NCBI GenBank assembly: GCA_951812925.1
Contig: OX638372.1
Span: 70,945,407-71,009,406 of the forward strand
DNA length: 64,000 nucleotides
Reading direction: 5' to 3'
Origin: Calliopum simillimum
Lineage: Eukaryota > Arthropoda > Insecta > Diptera > Lauxaniidae
Shown in pieces: positions 1-55,455 of the stretch; positions within the stretch are counted from its first letter, which is position 1; each line of letters opens with the position of its first letter. Both the position numbers and the translations under genes were made by a program. A model generated the notes under the pieces. It worked only from the letters and a program-made list of their open reading frames with translations, did no database searches and had not been told where the DNA came from.

Positions 1-274
1 ATGCATTGATAGATTTATATGTAAATCGATCTTTGCAAATATATGACTAAAAGTTCAATTAAATAAAATCATTTTTCAATATAAAATGTCATTAAGTAAC
101 ACACTTAAAAAATTCTTAAAGTTATTTGGGAGAACACGCCCTGATAAGGTGGAAACACCTGCAATCGGTATTGAATTTGTTCCAAAGGAACAACTATACC
201 AAATATCAATAAATAACACAAAACAACAATTATGATATATCAATACGTATTAACACACAAATAAAACTGGCAAA

Positions 275-362
275 AAGTCGGCTTCGCAGCCGGGCAAGGC
301 TGGTGCAGTGGTCCCGACTTCTGCTACCAACCTGGAGATCCTTGGTTCGTCTCCCGCCCAGA
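275..362 (+). other. tRNA-like segment with RNA polymerase III box A and box B, unit 1
   Basis: TGGTGCAGTGG at 301-311 fits the eukaryotic tRNA box A pattern and GGTTCGTCTCC at 344-354 is close to box B; spacing is normal for a tRNA gene. A perfect 5-pair hairpin (279-283 with 288-292) precedes it. A cloverleaf cannot be drawn with confidence, so this is read as a tRNA-derived SINE-type promoter head and not a tRNA gene. The more diverged copy near 24.3 kb has a better box B (GTTCAACTC), which argues that a box B is an ancestral feature of the family. Confidence 0.6.
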
Positions 363-443
363 CCAAAAACACAAAAAGTTTTCAAACTTGCAATTTTTCA
401 ATTATAATTAATTTAGTAAAATAAATATAATTATAATTACAAC

Positions 444-507
444 AAAAAATAGTCTGATGAGTCTTTGTGGCGAAAGACGAAACATATGTCACTATAGCCG
501 TGTTTTT
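444..507 (+). ncRNA. Type I hammerhead ribozyme, copy 1
   Basis: The full conserved core is present: CTGATGA at 454-460, stem II of six perfect pairs (461-466 with 473-478, loop GTGGCG), GAAA at 479-482, then a very short stem III (C483-G488, A484-U487) after the A482-U489 pair, and C490 as cleavage-site base. Cleavage is predicted between 490 and 491. Stem I is formed by 449-453 and 491-495 (five perfect pairs); an asymmetric internal loop follows and an A5/U5 helix (444-448 with 503-507) extends it. Open stem I makes this type I. Such a short stem III usually cleaves best as a dimer, which fits the tandem layout. Confidence 0.9.
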
Positions 508-819
508 AATCCGTTCCTTGATTTGTCATAATTATGTGTTAGAAAAATGCATTGATAGATTTATATGTAAATCGATCTTTGCAAATATATGACTAAAAGT
601 TCAATTAAATAAAATCATTTTTCAATATAAAATGTCATTAAGTAACACACTTAAAAAATTCTTAAAGTTATTTGGGAGAACACGCCCTGAAAGGTGGAAA
701 CACCTGCAATCGGTATTGAATTTGTTCCAAAGGAACAACTATACCAAATATCAATAAATAACACAAAACAACAATTATGATATATCAATACGTATTAACA
801 CTCAAATAAAACTGGCAAA

Positions 820-907
820 AAGTCGGCTTCGCAGCCGGGCAAGGCTGGTGCAGTGGTTACGACTTCTGCTACCAACCTGGAGATCCTTGGTTCGTCTCCC
901 GCCCAGA
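820..907 (+). other. tRNA-like segment with box A and box B, unit 2
   Basis: Second copy of the tRNA-like segment: box A at 846-856 and box B at 889-899. It differs from unit 1 mainly just after box A (TTAC in place of TCCC). Pol III transcription from here would run into the ribozyme of the same unit about 100 bases downstream. Confidence 0.6.
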
Positions 908-988
908 CCAAAAACACAAAAAGTTTTCAAACTTGCAATTTTTCAATTATAATTAATTTAGTAAAATAAATATAATTATAATTACAAC

Positions 989-1052
989 AAAAAATAGTCT
1001 GATGAGTCTTTGTGGCGAAAGACGAAACATATGTCACTATAGCCGTGTTTTT
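989..1052 (+). ncRNA. Type I hammerhead ribozyme, copy 2
   Basis: Identical in sequence to the first copy, 545 bases downstream: core CTGATGA at 999-1005, six-pair stem II, GAAA, two-to-three-pair stem III and predicted cleavage between 1035 and 1036. All core residues known to be needed for hammerhead catalysis are intact in both copies. Confidence 0.9.
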
Positions 1053-1163
1053 AATCCGTTCCTTGATTTGTCATAATTATGTGTTAGAAAAATGCATTGA
1101 TAGATTTATATGTAAATCGATCTTTGCAAATATATGACTAAAAGTTCAATTAAATAAAATCAT

Positions 1164-1500
1164 AATTTAATAAATATTTTAATTTCCTTTAGTGTGCATT
1201 TACACAAGGAAATTTCTTTGATAAATTTTTTTAGCTTGTTGGCAAGAGGGAAAAACGTGAATTGACGAGTACACAGTTTGTCGTACTCGGAATTTCTCTT
1301 TTATTCTGTTCGCTTGCGGAAATATTTTGTCATTACTTTTTATTTTTATTCGTTATTCCGACAAACGGTTGACGTGTTATAAAAAAATAAAATTTTTTCT
1401 TTAAATTTTTTATTTCAAAAAAATTTTGAAATAAAAAATTTTTTAACGAAATTTTCGTCCTGAGCTAAAATCATTATTCTTTGGCAAAACATTTGTTTTT
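1164..1500. other. No recognisable feature
   Basis: AT-rich sequence after the tandem array breaks off. A short inverted motif (AAAAATTTT-rich, 1385-1445) is visible. No gene or known repeat was recognised. Confidence 0.4.
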
Positions 1501-10517: not shown

Positions 10518-11386
10518 CAACGGTCCATTCAGTACGTTGAGTACGTTACGTCGTATTTTTCAACTGATAGCTAAGTTAAAAATCATGAGCTTATATCAAG
10601 TGCGACCCAATCAGTACGTCTACGTCAACGCAACGTACAAAAGTTGCCCAACTCTCAACATTCGACATACGTCGTGTAATTTGACAATCGTAAAATAAAT
10701 GTATTTTCAATTTCATTTGTTATTTTTTTTTTTTTTGGTTTGTCGTTTCTCTTTTATTTTTTGAATAAAATTGGAATTAAAAATTATTGGAGCTGTGCAA
10801 AATTAAAATTTCAAATTAATATTATGAAAGAATTTTGATTCCGTTTTCAAAGTATTCATTGGGCCAGGATTCTCCGTCAAATACGTCGCAGTCAGTTGAA
10901 AAAAACCACGTGACGTACTCGACGTACTGAATAGACCGTTGGTTTTAAGCGAACGGTCCATAGAATACGTCGAATACGTCACGTCGTTTTTTTCAACTGA
11001 CTGCGACGCATTTGACAGAGAAGCCTGGCCCAATGAATTTTTTGAAAACGGATTAAAACATCAAAATTCTTTTTATAACATTAATTTCAAATTTTAATTT
11101 TGCACTTGCACAGCTCCAATAATTTTTTATTCGCACTTTCTTTCAAAAAATAAATGAGACACCACACAGAAAAAAAAAACAACAAATGAAATTGAAAATA
11201 AATTTGTTTTACGATTGTCAAATCAAACGTCGTACGTCGAAAGTTGGGAGTTGTGCAATTTTTGTACGTTGCGTTGACGTAGACGTACTGATTGGGTCGC
11301 ACTTGATATAAACTTATGATTTTTAACTAAGCTGTCAGTTAAAAAAAAACGACGTGACGTACTCGACGTACTGAATGGACCGTTGG
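10518..11386. mobile_element. Two inverted, abutting MITE copies forming an 870 bp palindrome
   Basis: 10518-10942 and 10951-11386 are inverted copies of each other. Each copy also has its own inverted ends of about 35 bp, beginning AACGGTCCATTCAGTACGT and rich in CGTACG-like words. The same end motif therefore occurs four times: at both outer edges and twice at the centre, separated by only 8 bases. No coding capacity. The superfamily is not clear. Confidence 0.8.
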
Positions 11387-23505: not shown

Positions 23506-24122
23506 TTTTTTTTTTTTTTACTGTACTTTAAATTTTTAGGAAGATTATTTAAAAAAAAACAATTGTTTTTTCCAAAAATTAAACTTCGGTAACTGTGCTT
23601 TTGAGGATATTTAAATGAATAAAAACTATATCTAAATTTTCCATAGTCATAGTTTATTCACTTTGTTTATTCCGTTTGTAATATATAAGTAGATATCTAT
23701 ATACATTGTCGAGGATTGGTTCCATTTTGCAAATTTATTTTACATTTTTGTTTGTTGTGCCAACGCTTTTCGATTTGAAGCGCTCAGCTTTAGCAGAAAT
23801 CAAAAGCTTTAGCCAAGTACATAAATGACTTTCAAATAAACTTGTTTTGCATATGAGAAGAAACGGGATATTGGGGCCAATTGCAACAGAGCTCTAAAAA
23901 GAATAAAGAAACTGCCACTGCGCATGTCAACTTTGTTTTGCTAGCGGATCATGTGATCAGCTTTAAACAAAGAAACTGCGTCGCCATATTGGAAAAATGG
24001 CGTCCAAAATCAGTTTTTTACAAATATCTCTTTAACGGTTACATTAAGTGAAAAATATCGTGGTGCACTATTATAGCTTATAAAATTTTCTATAAAAATG
24101 AACATTGATTTTTTTAATTGAA
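23506..24122. other. Unassigned stretch
   Basis: AT-rich with no recognised gene or repeat. Confidence 0.4.
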
Positions 24123-24692
24123 CTTTTAGTCATATATTTGCAAAGATCGATTTACATATAAATCTATCAATGCATTTTCTAACAAATAATTATGACAAAT
24201 TAAGGAACGGATTAAAATCCAATGGAATAGCTGTACCAAATATCAATAAATAACACAAACAACAATAATGACATCAAGGCTTACGTAATAACACACAAAC
24301 AAAACTGGCAAAAGTCGGATTCGCAGCCGGGCAAGGATGGTGCATTGGTCTAACGACTTGTGCTACCGACCGGGAGGTCCTTAGTTCAACTCCCGCCCAG
24401 GCCAAAACACAAAAGTTTTTCAACTTGCAATTTTTCAATAATAATTAATTAAGTGAAATAAATATAATTATAATTACAATAAAAATAGTCTGTTGAGTCT
24501 TTGTGGCGAGAGACGAAACATATGTCACTATAGCCGTGTTTTTAATCCGTTCCTTAATTTGTGATAATTATGTGTTAGAAAATGCATTGATAGATTTATA
24601 TGTAATTCGATCTTTGCAAATATATGACTAAAAGTTCAATTAAAAAAATCAATTTTCAATATATAAATGTCATTAAGTAACACACTTAAAAC
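24123..24692 (+). mobile_element. Third, rearranged copy of the tRNA-like/hammerhead repeat
   Basis: 24123-24220 is an inverted piece covering the end of a unit and the first ~55 bases of the next. 24221-24692 is then in direct orientation, running from the mid-unit phrase TACCAAATATCAATAAATAA through the tRNA-like segment (box A 24338-24348, box B GTTCAACTC 24384-24392), the ribozyme region and about 110 bases of the next unit. An inverted 5' part joined to a direct 3' part is the pattern that twin priming leaves when a LINE machinery inserts an RNA. Overall several per cent diverged from the array at 1-1163. Confidence 0.85.
24479..24542 (+). ncRNA. Decayed hammerhead ribozyme
   Basis: Stem I, stem II (with one G-U pair), GAAA, stem III and the GTC|A cleavage position are preserved, but the core reads CTGTTGA at 24490-24496 in place of CTGATGA. 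That single core change should abolish or cripple cleavage. This gives a natural inactive comparison for the two intact copies. Confidence 0.75.
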
Positions 24693-27599: not shown

Positions 27600-27695
27600 G
27601 ATTGATGTTGCTTGTGGTGCTGATGGCTAACGCACGCATCTGTCACTACCACACTGGAGGTTCTCCTGGTTCAAATCTGTCCCCAAACTTGATTT
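27600..27695 (+). repeat. tRNA-derived SINE-like element
   Basis: Box A-like TGGTGCTGATGG near 27618 and a good box B GTTCAAATC near 27672 are 50 bases apart. A diverged copy lies at 27160-27260, preceded by the same TTTCAGTCAAC phrase, so this is a dispersed tRNA-derived repeat and not a tRNA gene. It is a different family from the hammerhead unit although the layout is similar. Confidence 0.6.
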
Positions 27696-29387: not shown

Positions 29388-31255
29388 TATTTATTTATTT
29401 ATTTATTTAAATTTCATTTACTGAGCCATTTGCTCTCATAAACTACAATGAATTTCATAATTCATACAACAAAATTAAAAGAAAATTAAAATAAATGGAC
29501 GAGACCAAAGATTATAAGTCCCATGTAGAAAGCATCTGTAGTAGTAGTGGTTACAAAAAAAGGAAGAAACAGTTCAAATAGTACCTGAAGAAAGCATTTT
29601 GAATATACAATTGAAGAATATACTCGTAAGAGTTCCTACAATTGATCTTCTGAACTCTTTATCCAGGAACTATGGCACAACAAAGAAAGGTGCTCACGAA
29701 CCTCTCCAGCGCTAGAAAGAAAACGCTATAAAATGTAACCACTATCTTGAGGAAGAGCTCTGGAAGGAGCGCTATGACCATGGCGCTAGATAGCTGCCTT
29801 TGTGGAAGCTGGTACTAGGTATAACCAATTTTAAAGGATGGCCTCATCCGGCCGAGGAACGCTATGACCATGGCGCTAAATAGTTGTCTTTGTGGAAGCT
29901 GCTGCTAGGTATAACCAGTTTTAAAGGATGGCCTCATCCGGCCGAGGAGCGCTATGACCATGGCGCTAGATAGCTGCCTTTGTGGAAGCTGCTACCAAGT
30001 ATTACTATTGCTAAAGCAAGGACTCATCCAGCCGAGTAGATGGCTGAACGCTGCAGAGTTTAGCTAGTGGCCAACATCCGTTCGGAAATAGCCATGTGCG
30101 AATAACAGCATAACAAGTGATGAGCCTTAACTTTATACTAGCATCAGGTTATCTGAAACGATAAAGTTTTATGATTTATCAAGAAAACACAAAATGCTGT
30201 GTTTGGTAACATTCTGTGCTTGATTAAAATCAATAGCCACATAAACATGGTTGAAATCAGAGCACGCATTTCGGAAGGGCTCATGTAACAGATAATTAGA
30301 TCTGCAAGTATTTAAGTGCAGCAGTTCGAACCTTCTCATTGGTCGTTGAGGCACATTAATGAGTATTTGATTTAAAAGGTCCTCGCTTAGAACACATCCA
30401 TTAATAAGCTTAATAATGAATAAAGTATTCAGCATTATTCTCCTGTTCTTTAGAGACGGTAAGTTGATTAACTTTAGTCTGTGTTCATATGGTGGTAAAT
30501 GAACTGTTGGATCCCAAGCAAAACTTCGCAGACAAAAAAGCAAGAACTGCTTTTGAACCGATTCTATTGCGTGTATGTAACATTGATACCGAGGGCACCA
30601 AACTACGGAAGCATATTCTAAAATTGGTCTCACCAAAGATGAAAACAAAGTTTTTGTGATATATGGATCACAAAACTCTTTGAACCAGCGCTTTATGAAG
30701 CCAAGAACACATTTAGCCTTATTGATCATTCGGTCTATATGAATATTAAACTTTAGTTTCGGATCCATTGTTACGCCTAAGTCCTCAAAAGAGTTGCGAT
30801 TTTCGAGGGTATGATTACCAATGTAATAATTACATGAAAGTGGAGTTTTGCGAGTAAAAGACATGTGCATGCATTTCTTTAAATTTAGTTTCATGCAGTT
30901 AGCTTCACACCAGCTAAAAATACTGTTTAAGTCATGCTGTAGATACGTTGACTCAAATTCGTGCTTAAGAGGATAAAAAAGCTTGACGTCATCAGCGTAC
31001 ATTAAGATATTACAGTATCTTAAAACAGTTAAATCGTTTATAAAAATATTAAAAAGCAGAGGACCAATGTGAGAGTTTCATTAACAGAAGCTTGTGATTT
31101 ACTACGTCAAAAGCTTTGCTAAAATCAGTATAGATTACGTCGGTTTGAAAACCATTTGCGAATTGACTAATAGTCATATTAGTGAATTCCAATAAATTAG
31201 TTACTGTAGATTTTCCTGGTAGGAACTTTTGGATAACGCCCTCTACAGCAGCCAA
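29388..31255 (-). mobile_element. Non-LTR retrotransposon A, 5' truncated and internally deleted
   Basis: On the minus strand 31255-31049 codes the fingers of a reverse transcriptase (FLPGKSTVTNLLEF, then DVIYTDFSKAFDVVNHK). 31002-30169 codes the palm and C-terminal part with catalytic MYADDVKLF, then EYASVVWCPRY and an uninterrupted run to the stop at 30169. The VPQGS segment between them is lost by an internal deletion. The 3' end at the left edge is a (TAAA)n tail, seen as TTTATTTATTTATTTA at 29388-29409. The clade is not certain (CR1/Jockey-like by its YADD and C-terminal layout). Related to element B at 33970-35216. Confidence 0.8.
29767..30036 (-). repeat. 90 bp tandem repeat in the 3' region of non-LTR element A
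   Basis: Three units start at 29767, 29857 and 29947 with GAGCGCTATGACCATGGCGC; the first two are over 90 per cent alike, the third diverges at its end. They lie between the end of the coding region and the tail, so they are part of the 3' untranslated region. Confidence 0.85.
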
Positions 31256-40283: not shown

Positions 40284-41037
40284 ATGGTTGAAAGTGATGG
40301 AGAGGTTTCACAATTTGATTCGTTGGATAATTGCTCAGAAGGCGGTATGAGCGCTGAAAACTTCAATACTTTAAAGAAAGGACCATTACCGCCAATAGAT
40401 CCGCCTCCACAGTTTCAGGACTCACCACAAACAACCCTGATCCGATCAGTTTCAAACAACATTGTTAATACTGTAAGGCGTTGGTCATTATCGCAATCTT
40501 CTTTCGAACATATTAAAGAAACAAACGAAAACATAAGGCGTGATGAAAGTCATGAGAACTGTAGTTTAAATGAAAGTGATACAGTCAAATATAGCAACAG
40601 AATATTAAGAGATTCTTATGCTGTCAATAAGCATTTGTATTCAAGTGATTCGATTTTAAATACTTACACGGATAATATATACGATGAGCCTAATAACATA
40701 ATAAGTTCGTCATTAGGGACAAGTATTGATGTTATTGATTCGGATTCTTCTTCACCTATCCCACCGCCTATACCGAGCACACTGATAAATGTGAAACAAT
40801 CATTGTGTCCATACTACCAGGATCATTCTAGGTATTTTAAAGCAATTCCATCCGATCAGGACAATATACCGATAACCGCACAGAAATTTAATGTAGCGGG
40901 TCTTTCAGAAATACATGACTACGATTTGTATTATGGAGCCAAGAAAACCACATATCAATATGACAACAGTTTACAACGAAAACTTTTATATAGTCCTCTA
41001 AATCATTCTTACCACTATAATAGTCATCATTATACAG
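40284..41037 (+). CDS. Host-like exon, ~251 codons, Ser/Pro-rich protein of unknown identity
   Basis: TTATATATTTTTCAG ending at 40283 is a good 3' splice site and ACAG|GTATTT at 41038 a fair 5' site; the frame is open across the exon. The product has acidic Ser-rich sequence, a proline-rich motif (GPLPPIDPPPQF), an Arg-Arg-Trp-Ser stretch (NTVRRWSLSQSSFEHI), YDEP and SSPIPPPIPS. Such features suit a cytoplasmic signalling or scaffold region with SH3/WW-type binding motifs, but I do not recognise the protein. It starts in phase 0, matching the exon at 21975-22256. Residues after 41037 would be intron read-through. Frame-wide lack of stops in AT-rich DNA supports selection. Confidence 0.65.
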
Positions 41038-41587
41038 GTATTTTTAACTTCATACATGTTATAATTAGTATTAGCTGTATTTTATTCGCCAATATTATTT
41101 TTGTACGAATAAAACGACCAAAGTTATCAATAGCACTTTCAGAAAAATATTGGTAGATTTTTGTTTTATAATTTGTATTTTTGGAATATTATTATTTAAT
41201 ATTTTTATATATTTTTATTTAAAAAGAACCACTGGATTTGAAACAAAAGACATCATTTTAAAGTTCATCACTCGATTGCGAAGTTGTAATTTTTTTGCTC
41301 CCCGTACATTAAAAAAAAATTAAAACATTGAGACCGTCTCCATACTTTAAAAATTAATATTTTTAAAGAAATTTTCTTTTATATTAATGCACATTTAATT
41401 CCTACATTGATTTTCCAGAACAATATTCCGTCCTTTGCATTTTTAAAATCTATTTTTCAAGGTTCAATAGAAAACCGGCTGGGTTTTTTCCGCCAAAGAT
41501 TCCTCATTTATTTATAAATCTTATTTTTTCGCTCTATTTTATGAAAACGGAAGTGGAGCAAAAAACTTGCAACTTAACACATTTTAT
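41038..41587. other. No recognisable feature
   Basis: AT-rich, probable intron. No exon or repeat recognised before the foldback at 41588. Confidence 0.4.
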
Positions 41588-51960: not shown

Positions 51961-52274
51961 CAAAAGTCAAAATTGTAGTATCTTACGATTTGAATATCAT
52001 AAATAAAAATAAGATATGACGTTAGTTTATTGACTGTTTTTTTGCTTGTATAGTACTAATGAAAGTTCCAACGCGCTGTTTTCTAAATTGAAGTATGATA
52101 ATTTTATGTTGAACTAATTAAACAGTCATTTTTGCAATTTTTCAACAACAGACGAAAGGAAGTGTTAACATGGAAATTGATTACATATGTTTCGGCTACT
52201 TCCACATACATATTTATATATTTTCATATATAAATATGTATATAGCCTCATCAGATCAGTTTTAGTTAAATCTT

Positions 52275-52355
52275 GCCAGAAACCGTACTCGAACCCGTGA
52301 CTCCGGTTTTCTAATGAAAGAGAACGCGGTGCTTAAGCGATTGTGCTATAGGTCA
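52275..52355 (-). other. tRNA-like segment (SINE head or tRNA pseudogene)
   Basis: On the minus strand a box A-like TAGCACAATCGC (52349-52338) and a box B-like GGTTCGAGTAC (52295-52285) are 43 bases apart, and GTCACGGGTTCGA is the usual T-arm wording. A full cloverleaf is not possible. No tail or target duplication was seen. Confidence 0.4.
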
Positions 52356-52497
52356 CGAGTAAACTCTCTGAACAGGATCGCCATTATGAATAAATCATAA
52401 GGCTCACTAGCGCCGTCTGTTGTGAAAAATTGCCAAATTGTTAGTTGGTAACACACTCTGGTTTTGAGACATGCTACGCTAGCTACAATTAAAGATC

Positions 52498-54939: not shown

Positions 54940-55157
54940 TCTACAGTGGACAGTGGATTTGTTTTCATTTCCGAATCTTATTACTTAGTTTTAATAAATT
55001 TTAAATTAGAGCAAATAATAAATAATTTAGTTATTTTATTGAAGCGTGTACTTGTACTGTAAGCTGTAAGAATACGAAAACACAGAAAGAAAGTAAAAAA
55101 TTTTTATAGAAATAGTGCGAATTTTAATAATTGTAATGGAAAATAGGATATAAAAAT

Positions 55158-55455
55158 TAACCAAGTGGAGTGATTGAATTTCGCACTGTGTTTGGAAAAG
55201 AAAAATAACCAAGTGGAGTGATTAAATTCGCACAGTGGTTGAAAAAAACAAATAACCAAGTTGAATGATTAAATTCGTACAGTGGTTAAAAAAAAATAAC
55301 CAAGTTGAGTGATTAAATTCGCACAGTGGTTGAAAAAAAAAAAAAATAACCAAGTTGAGTGATTAAATTCGCACAGTGGTTGAAAAAAAAAAAAAAAATA
55401 ATCAAGTTGAGTGATTAAATTCGCACAATGGTTAAATGATTAAATTCGCACAGTA
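55158..55455 (+). repeat. Tandem array of ~43-51 bp units in the leader of gypsy element 2
   Basis: Six copies of TAACCAAGT(G/T)GAGTGATT followed by AAATTCGCACAGTGGTT, separated by A-runs of varying length (starts near 55158, 55206, 55254, 55297, 55347, 55399), plus a partial seventh. The core is conserved while the A-runs vary. It lies between the primer site and gag. Confidence 0.88.

Follow-up and report, generated by a model that had tools for sequence, protein, structure and literature searches.

The first 1,163 nucleotides of the window, by which we mean the whole stretch of 64,000 nucleotides of Calliopum simillimum DNA analysed here, hold tandem copies of an element that is probably a tRNA-headed, SINE-like metazoan retrozyme, non-coding and non-autonomous, which would owe its movement to the reverse transcriptase (RT) and endonuclease of a Penelope-like element. 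In the cycle that we propose, the array would be transcribed and its hammerhead ribozymes would cut the RNA at unit position 490/491, after which a host ligase would close monomers into 545-nt circles, although part of the templates may be multimers that stay linear. An AT-rich target would be cut by a Penelope-like RT/endonuclease, often after AAT and with a stagger of 11 to 17 bp, and both 3' ends of the target would prime on unit RNA, one at around unit position 71 and the other at around 120. Each RT would then copy a variable number of units, leaving two head-to-head arms that are joined in the middle of the insert, with a target duplication on either side. The genomic evidence described below would fit an RNA, multi-unit or circular, that cleaves itself and is reinserted by an RT; a sequence-only reading of this DNA had predicted possible LINE-mediated reinsertion, and the mobiliser looks Penelope-like and not LINE-like.

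Tandem units of ca. 545 bp with a tRNA-like head and a complete type I hammerhead had been claimed for positions 1 to 1163, and this is confirmed. Two full units on the forward strand (1–546 and 547–1091, ca. 99.3% identical, with a period of 545 to 546 bp) are followed by a partial unit of 72 nt (1092–1163) that terminates the arm. They form the right half of a head-to-head array (locus L009) whose inverted arm extends to the left beyond base 1, and the right copy of the target duplication that flanks the whole insertion lies at 1164–1178 (forward strand), with the left copy outside the window. The unit has a GC content of 0.317 and no stop-free frame longer than 62 aa, and hence contains no RT plus GIY-YIG frame, for which reason we do not file it as an autonomous Penelope-like element. 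An older copy in the window shows the same kind of architecture, with an inverted arm at 24099–24217 (reverse strand; unit 504–546 joined to 1–78) and a forward arm at 24218–24691 (unit 181–546 joined to 1–110); its main piece of 372 nt is 88% identical to the unit and its hammerhead core is broken (CTGTTGA). Because of the inverted repeats that end the 24-kb and 52-kb elements, a DNA transposon had also been considered; we rejected this interpretation, as the genome copies show the arm structure. Elsewhere in the window there are short tandem arrays at 29765–30036 (90-bp unit) and 55152–55433 (47-bp unit), a host-like protein at 40290–41153 with Musca vetustissima as best named match (62% identity over 78%) and a further match at 92%, and, at 10885–11007 on the reverse strand, a long imperfect hairpin with a sub-threshold match to MIR1319 (66.5 bits at a cut-off of 116.6) that is probably an inverted repeat.

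The hammerheads span 449–495 in unit 1 and 994–1040 in unit 2 on the forward strand, with predicted cuts at 490/491 and 1035/1036, and the earlier description of a motif with all core residues, paired stems I and II and a short stem III is borne out in both units. The CTGATGA cores begin at 454 and 999, stem I comprises 5 bp and stem II 6 bp, and the GAAA segment is present. Stem III lies in the palindromic ACATATGT and is read as 2 bp on an ATAT loop; since this stretch is self-complementary, an RNA dimer could form 8 bp in stem III. A strict hammerhead descriptor matched the 64 kb only at these two places, at an expectation of 0.02 matches per 64 kb from 100 first-order Markov sequences. A looser descriptor, with a background of 0.3 random matches per 64 kb (0.1 with a perfect core), added the decayed 24-kb copy and, on the reverse strand at 52 kb, a different element whose stem II is long. 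The Rfam check, run on bases 1–1300, placed Hammerhead_1 at exactly 449–495 and 994–1040 with 21.5 bits, short of the gathering score of 34, alongside matches to bacterial and archaeal sRNAs and other families that we take as chance; on the whole window, no family reached its gathering score and a scan at E ≤ 3 listed no hammerhead. Each unit thus carries the type I hammerhead of a retrozyme as judged by descriptor and alignment, with an Rfam score below gathering. ViennaRNA folds were mixed in that a 65-nt stretch folded in a hammerhead-like manner and longer stretches and the majority sequence did not. The ribozyme core showed 2 changes in 1690 positions among sampled units versus 237 in 71315 for the comparison, a difference that is not significant, and we accordingly rejected the idea of selection on the core. 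No viral contig matched the exact hammerhead pattern.

Upstream of the ribozyme, unit 1 contains an A box at 301–311 (no mismatches; unit 2 copy at 846–856) and a B box at 344–354 (one mismatch; unit 2 copy at 889–899) at the spacing of a tRNA, as in tRNA-derived SINEs. At no more than one mismatch per box, A/B pairs occur at three places on both strands of the 64 kb, namely in the two units and in the 52-kb element, where 0.07 would be expected, so that two different ribozyme families both appear to be tRNA-headed. At up to two mismatches per box such pairs are common by chance (17.45 expected). The 24-kb copy has an A/B head with more mismatches, and a further pair (one and two mismatches) lies at 27615–27678 on the forward strand, where the hammerhead scans reported nothing. 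ARAGORN called no tRNA at default settings; under relaxed settings both units, to which no tRNA identity was assigned, and the 24-kb copy gave a tRNA-like fold, and the head at 52 kb gave none. Transcription of a multimer by pol III, as had been predicted, is doubtful, because a T4 run (379–382) and a T5 run (394–398), both nearly invariant among sampled units and possible pol III stops, lie between head and ribozyme, and a pol III transcript would probably end before reaching the latter.

A search of the whole genome (690 Mb in 334 contigs) gave at least 211 matches to unit 1 from the best 40 of 1585 candidate places, and the 39 loci that we fetched are the clusters among the matches listed. 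Because only 40 candidate places were scored, this sample is biased toward young copies, and the arms are indeed mostly 98% to 99% identical to unit 1 (arms below 94% identity were dropped). Like retrozymes, the copies are arranged head to tail, are low in GC and lack a long coding frame. Another insect tandem repeat of ca. 500 bp with a hammerhead, the pDo500 satellite of Dolichopoda cave crickets, was reportedly described by Rojas et al. in 2000, and its likeness to our unit is one of description.

The outer ends of these insertions fall mostly at two positions of the unit. Across the 39 loci, 27 of 62 outer ends fall into a class A near unit position 71 and 30 into a class B near 120, using wide class limits (unit 55–90 and 105–127, respectively), and after trimming the modes are at exactly 71 and 120, 49 nt apart; the five remaining ends are at unit 44, 272, 520, 236, and 401. 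Where both ends of a locus could be placed (n = 23), 18 loci pair one A with one B end, none pairs A with A or B with B, and five have one end elsewhere. With independent ends, 18 discordant pairs out of 18 would have a probability of roughly 4 in a million. The arms of L021 and of L032 lie on either side of a 200-N gap, so the head-to-head layout of these two loci depends on the assembly. Since all but five of the 62 outer ends belong to class A or B and, with the flanks judged by eye, the poly(A) or simple-repeat 3' tail of a SINE is missing, we call the element SINE-like and do not file it as a SINE.

Direct repeats of 11 to 17 bp abut the boundaries of 21 of the 39 loci, compared to 8 of 1482 cross-locus control pairs, and a repeat of at least 11 nt is present in 18 of the 24 loci that have at least two arms; it is absent at this length from the boundaries of 18 of all 39. 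Of the 42 ends whose position is exact, 18 are preceded by the trinucleotide AAT, against a background of 4.1%. The anatomy of a Penelope-type insertion, i.e., a piece inverted head to head, a short duplication and a tail at just one inverted end, is thus found, with some loci lacking these features. Three one-armed loci (L037, L042, and L045) have a poly(A) filler of ca. 18 to 33 nt between inner end and direct repeat, which looks as if the second strand had been primed on another RNA, and in L041 a poly(T) run lies immediately outside one outer end.

Inner ends, where the arms stop, give a fainter picture. Five of 62 are at unit 491–493, directly behind the predicted cut, one of them (L021) beside an N run; these counts exclude L029 and the third arm of L015. 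Once five ends at N runs are removed, 4 of 57 remain (P = 2.9e-4 for a pre-named site), which ties with the window 344–346 (also 4 of 57), and among 5000 random sets, 529 contain a 3-nt window with at least four ends. Over the broader interval of 488–508, which was chosen after looking, we count 11 of 57 (P = 9.7e-6). The inner end of L041 lies at 492 untrimmed and is counted at its trimmed position of 499. We regard this enrichment near the cut as moderate evidence that the RT may have run off ribozyme-cut RNA. Smaller clusters of inner ends at unit 345–346 (4 of 62) and 354–355 (3 of 62) lie in the B-box region and are possible RT stops, with one end at 355 adjoining an N run.

Units within one arm resemble each other more than they resemble units elsewhere. 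Full units differ by 0.31% within arms and by 0.58% between loci (none of 300 permutations was as low), and including trimmed pieces the values are 0.30% within arms (193 pairs) and 0.51% between loci (7362 pairs). In the L019 arm, the variant 180C is found in 10 of 10 full units, and it also occurs in one unit of L013, and all eight covering pieces of L024 carry 17G together with 72T. One template per arm is thus well supported. Between opposite arms of the same locus the average difference is 0.65% (32 pairs of pieces, of which L021 provides 12; 0.69% and 0.67% in two further counts), no closer than that between pieces of different loci. Individual variants point the other way in some loci: 34G, private to L046, is present in four of four covering pieces across both arms, 227T is common to both arms of L031, and 74C to both arms of L022 and of L030. 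Altogether, in 20 two-armed loci (L015 and L029 excluded), 5 of 21 non-consensus sites are common to opposite arms, each in a different locus; shuffling the partners gave a mean of 0.39 such sites, and none of 2000 trials reached five. The other 16 of the 21 informative sites are not shared in this way. Evidence that a single template served both arms is therefore mixed, with five loci that would support it, and the arrays of L047 and L015 are mixed in their units.

We tentatively suggest, giving it somewhat less than an even chance, that one circular RNA is primed at two fixed sites 49 nt apart by both strands of a single Penelope-type break and copied by two rolling-circle RTs. If true, such priming would account for how Penelope elements in general come to have head-to-head arms and a tail on one side; the ribozyme would produce the circle and later end the copying by cutting it again, and the tRNA-like head would mark a class of SINEs dependent on Penelope-like elements instead of LINEs. 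It is also possible, if somewhat doubtful, that the templates are linear multimers and that the two arms may come from two RNA molecules. The average distance between opposite arms and mixed arrays such as L047 agree with such multimers, as do arms of 721, 1733, and 1824 nt that run through at least one whole unit and stop at the cut, which would fit a multimer with a cut 5' end. However, donors would already have to be homogeneous for private variants, the rare variants common to both arms in five loci are at odds with separate molecules, and the strict pairing of one A with one B end is not explained by independent ones. An origin of the tandems at the DNA level, with unequal crossing over or gene conversion after single insertions and arm homogeneity as concerted evolution, seems improbable to us. 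Local exchange does predict what we see on average, strong homogeneity within arms and none between opposite arms, but the same five loci share their rare variants across oppositely oriented arms, the first and last pieces obey the end rules, and the duplications flank entire multi-unit inserts.

As to the partner that would provide the RT, the genome contains 51 GIY-YIG matches with open frames of up to 841 aa, not all of which need be Penelope, and we examined 18 such loci, including two (L051 and L052) on small contigs whose frames span the whole 900 nt and which may not be Penelope. In two of the 18, L053 and L060, the ORF is followed on its 3' side by a block 72% to 73% identical to unit 245–484 that carries a tRNA-like head and a degenerate hammerhead core. 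Both blocks share a sharp start (CCAACAG), which also occurs within the block itself, and are joined to their ORFs at different points, once inside the ORF end. The test of whether the repeat is the terminal repeat of a Penelope element, which had been proposed with the sequence-only reading, thus came out divided, in that 2 of 18 ORFs have a related block behind them but its sharp boundary falls at two different places and its core is degenerate. We read these loci as template-switch chimeras that would tie such elements to Penelope RNA. Two further loci, L066 and L067, represent a third related element, in which 36-bp tandem repeats, a tRNA-like head and a degenerate hammerhead adjoin the ends of GIY-YIG ORFs.

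An autonomous element with the unit's own tail was not found among the 18 GIY-YIG loci, and the tail alignments of 16 are within 2.1 SD of shuffles. The outliers are L060 (3.4 SD), which is the related block itself, and L064 (3.9 SD), which we did not accept as a tail homologue, the alignment being gapped and AT-rich; over 26 nt, L065 resembles the 120 site (84.6%, E = 0.003), a similarity that we consider weak. Hammerhead-like motifs were found by pattern in several GIY-YIG loci, and in L048 such a motif precedes the end of an ORF-flanking direct repeat by ca. 140 nt, close to the 127 nt that separate the cut from site 71 in the unit. Rfam gave five weak matches on the 18 loci, none of them a hammerhead. 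A scan of the window and of L001 to L047 for RT and GIY-YIG residue motifs yielded a single match that we took as chance.

These results bear on the possibility that the unit is the terminal repeat (pLTR) of an autonomous Penelope-like element, or arose from one by deletion, and is not a separate SINE-like lineage, which we think unlikely but deserving of some weight. It would account for the block with head and hammerhead remnant 3' of two GIY-YIG ORFs and for the Penelope-like anatomy of insertions, and the ATG within CUGAUGA opens a frame of 24 codons in the unit, just as the ORF of the Penelope-like element PAc begins at stem II (PMC11167929). Against it, the block joins the two ORFs at different places and its start point recurs inside it, its core is degenerate, 16 of the 18 GIY-YIG loci are without it, and the unit itself has no stop-free frame beyond the 62 aa given above. 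Quite improbable in our view is that a LINE moves the unit as an ordinary SINE, with the inversions resulting from twin priming in the manner of L1. The tRNA-like head with A and B boxes, the LINE-like RT ORFs that we see by eye in the window and the duplications of 11 to 17 bp would all agree with a LINE, but the two preferred internal 3' ends paired one of each, the multi-unit arms on both sides (e.g., in L009) and the outer ends without a constant poly(A) tail (judged by eye) do not. Movement by a Penelope-like enzyme remains the reading that we favour.

The combination of hammerhead and tRNA-type promoter, which the sequence-only reading could not assign to any described family, does have a place: the portions covered of the schistosome literature describe Sm-alpha and Sj-alpha as SINE-like elements with hammerheads and A and B boxes (PMC2576457, PMC2770079, PMC8490949), with hammerheads aligned to the boxes (PMC2576457) and tRNA-Gln-like SINEs linked to Sm-alpha (PMC2770079). 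These are flatworm elements, the related W element measures 335 bp, and as far as these portions go their likeness to our unit is by description only. Hammerheads with pol III boxes are thus not new in kind, and the value of the fly element lies in its insertion anatomy. Tandem hammerhead repeats are likewise already known as metazoan retrozymes, and the parts of the retrozyme papers covered describe non-LTR forms that resemble our unit in their type I hammerhead, low-GC tandems, many copies, absence of coding and duplications above 4 bp (PMC7229834, PMC7761336). At 545 to 546 bp the unit is longer than the ca. 170 to 400 given there, a difference that we do not treat as defining since the 2020 Discussion, in the part covered, cites circRNAs of 150 to more than 1000 nt (PMC7229834). 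Retrozymes seem to lack promoters according to the portion covered of a 2020 review (PMC7761336), and the tRNA-like A and B boxes of this insect retrozyme stand against that picture; type III hammerheads are mentioned for flies in what we covered of another paper (PMC7936874). The covered portions of the two retrozyme papers make no mention of the end pattern seen here (PMC7229834, PMC7761336), and no paired end sites in retrozymes turned up in titles and abstract openings, largely outside subscription papers, in a search mostly aimed elsewhere.

Penelope-like elements share with our unit hammerheads, full or partial tandems, a piece inverted head to head, short duplications, a one-sided tail and AT-rich targets (PMC3846280 in the portion covered, PMC11167929). 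For Penelope itself, inverted head-to-head pLTRs, duplications of 8 to 10 bp and an optional tail on one inverted pLTR are described, and self-priming on an antisense template is favoured, without being settled, as the origin of head-to-head inserts (portion covered of PMC3846280). The purified protein of PAc cuts and extends both strands, prefers ATT and has two internal RT starts (PMC11167929). The end sites of our unit are 49 nt apart versus 30 to 40 nt in these elements and its duplications 11 to 17 bp versus 8 to 10 bp (PMC11167929; PMC3846280 in the portion covered). Unlike our unit with its one-of-each pairing, PAc shows no difference in start sites between strands, and its insertion is independent of ribozyme cutting (PMC11167929). 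The spread of retrozymes via circular RNA is a model, and young fly copies provide footprints with which to test it; the same footprints, i.e., paired start sites, likeness within arms and ends near the cut, can be used to test how head-to-head Penelope insertions form.

The 52-kb element belongs to a second retrozyme-like family. The copy in the window, at 52021–52493 on the reverse strand, spans positions f97 to f571 of a 574-nt unit, with a long-stem-II hammerhead at 52178–52258 (predicted cut 52182/52181) and a tRNA-like A box to B box segment at 52285–52348, both on the same strand; no T4 run was found from the B box through the ribozyme. The best 40 of 1577 candidates scored gave at least 46 matches in the genome, of which those listed comprise 41 that cover the 336-nt query fully or nearly so at 97% to 100% and five short ones. 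Six fetched loci contain eight ribozymes with an exact 3' side, as the search required (altered 3' sides would be missed), and all eight have an intact 5' side. The family is tandem at two places with a period of 572 to 574. In seven aligned copies, 3' ends are at f571 to f5 or at f498 to f502 of the unit, and the head-to-head copy L070 has one 3' end of each class; in two others, L068 and L071, a short inverted piece on the left ends elsewhere (f107 and f267). Six of the seven copies (L068 to L073 and the one in the window) start at f97 to f102, at or just after a TTTT run and far from the cut at f408, unlike the inner ends of the first family.
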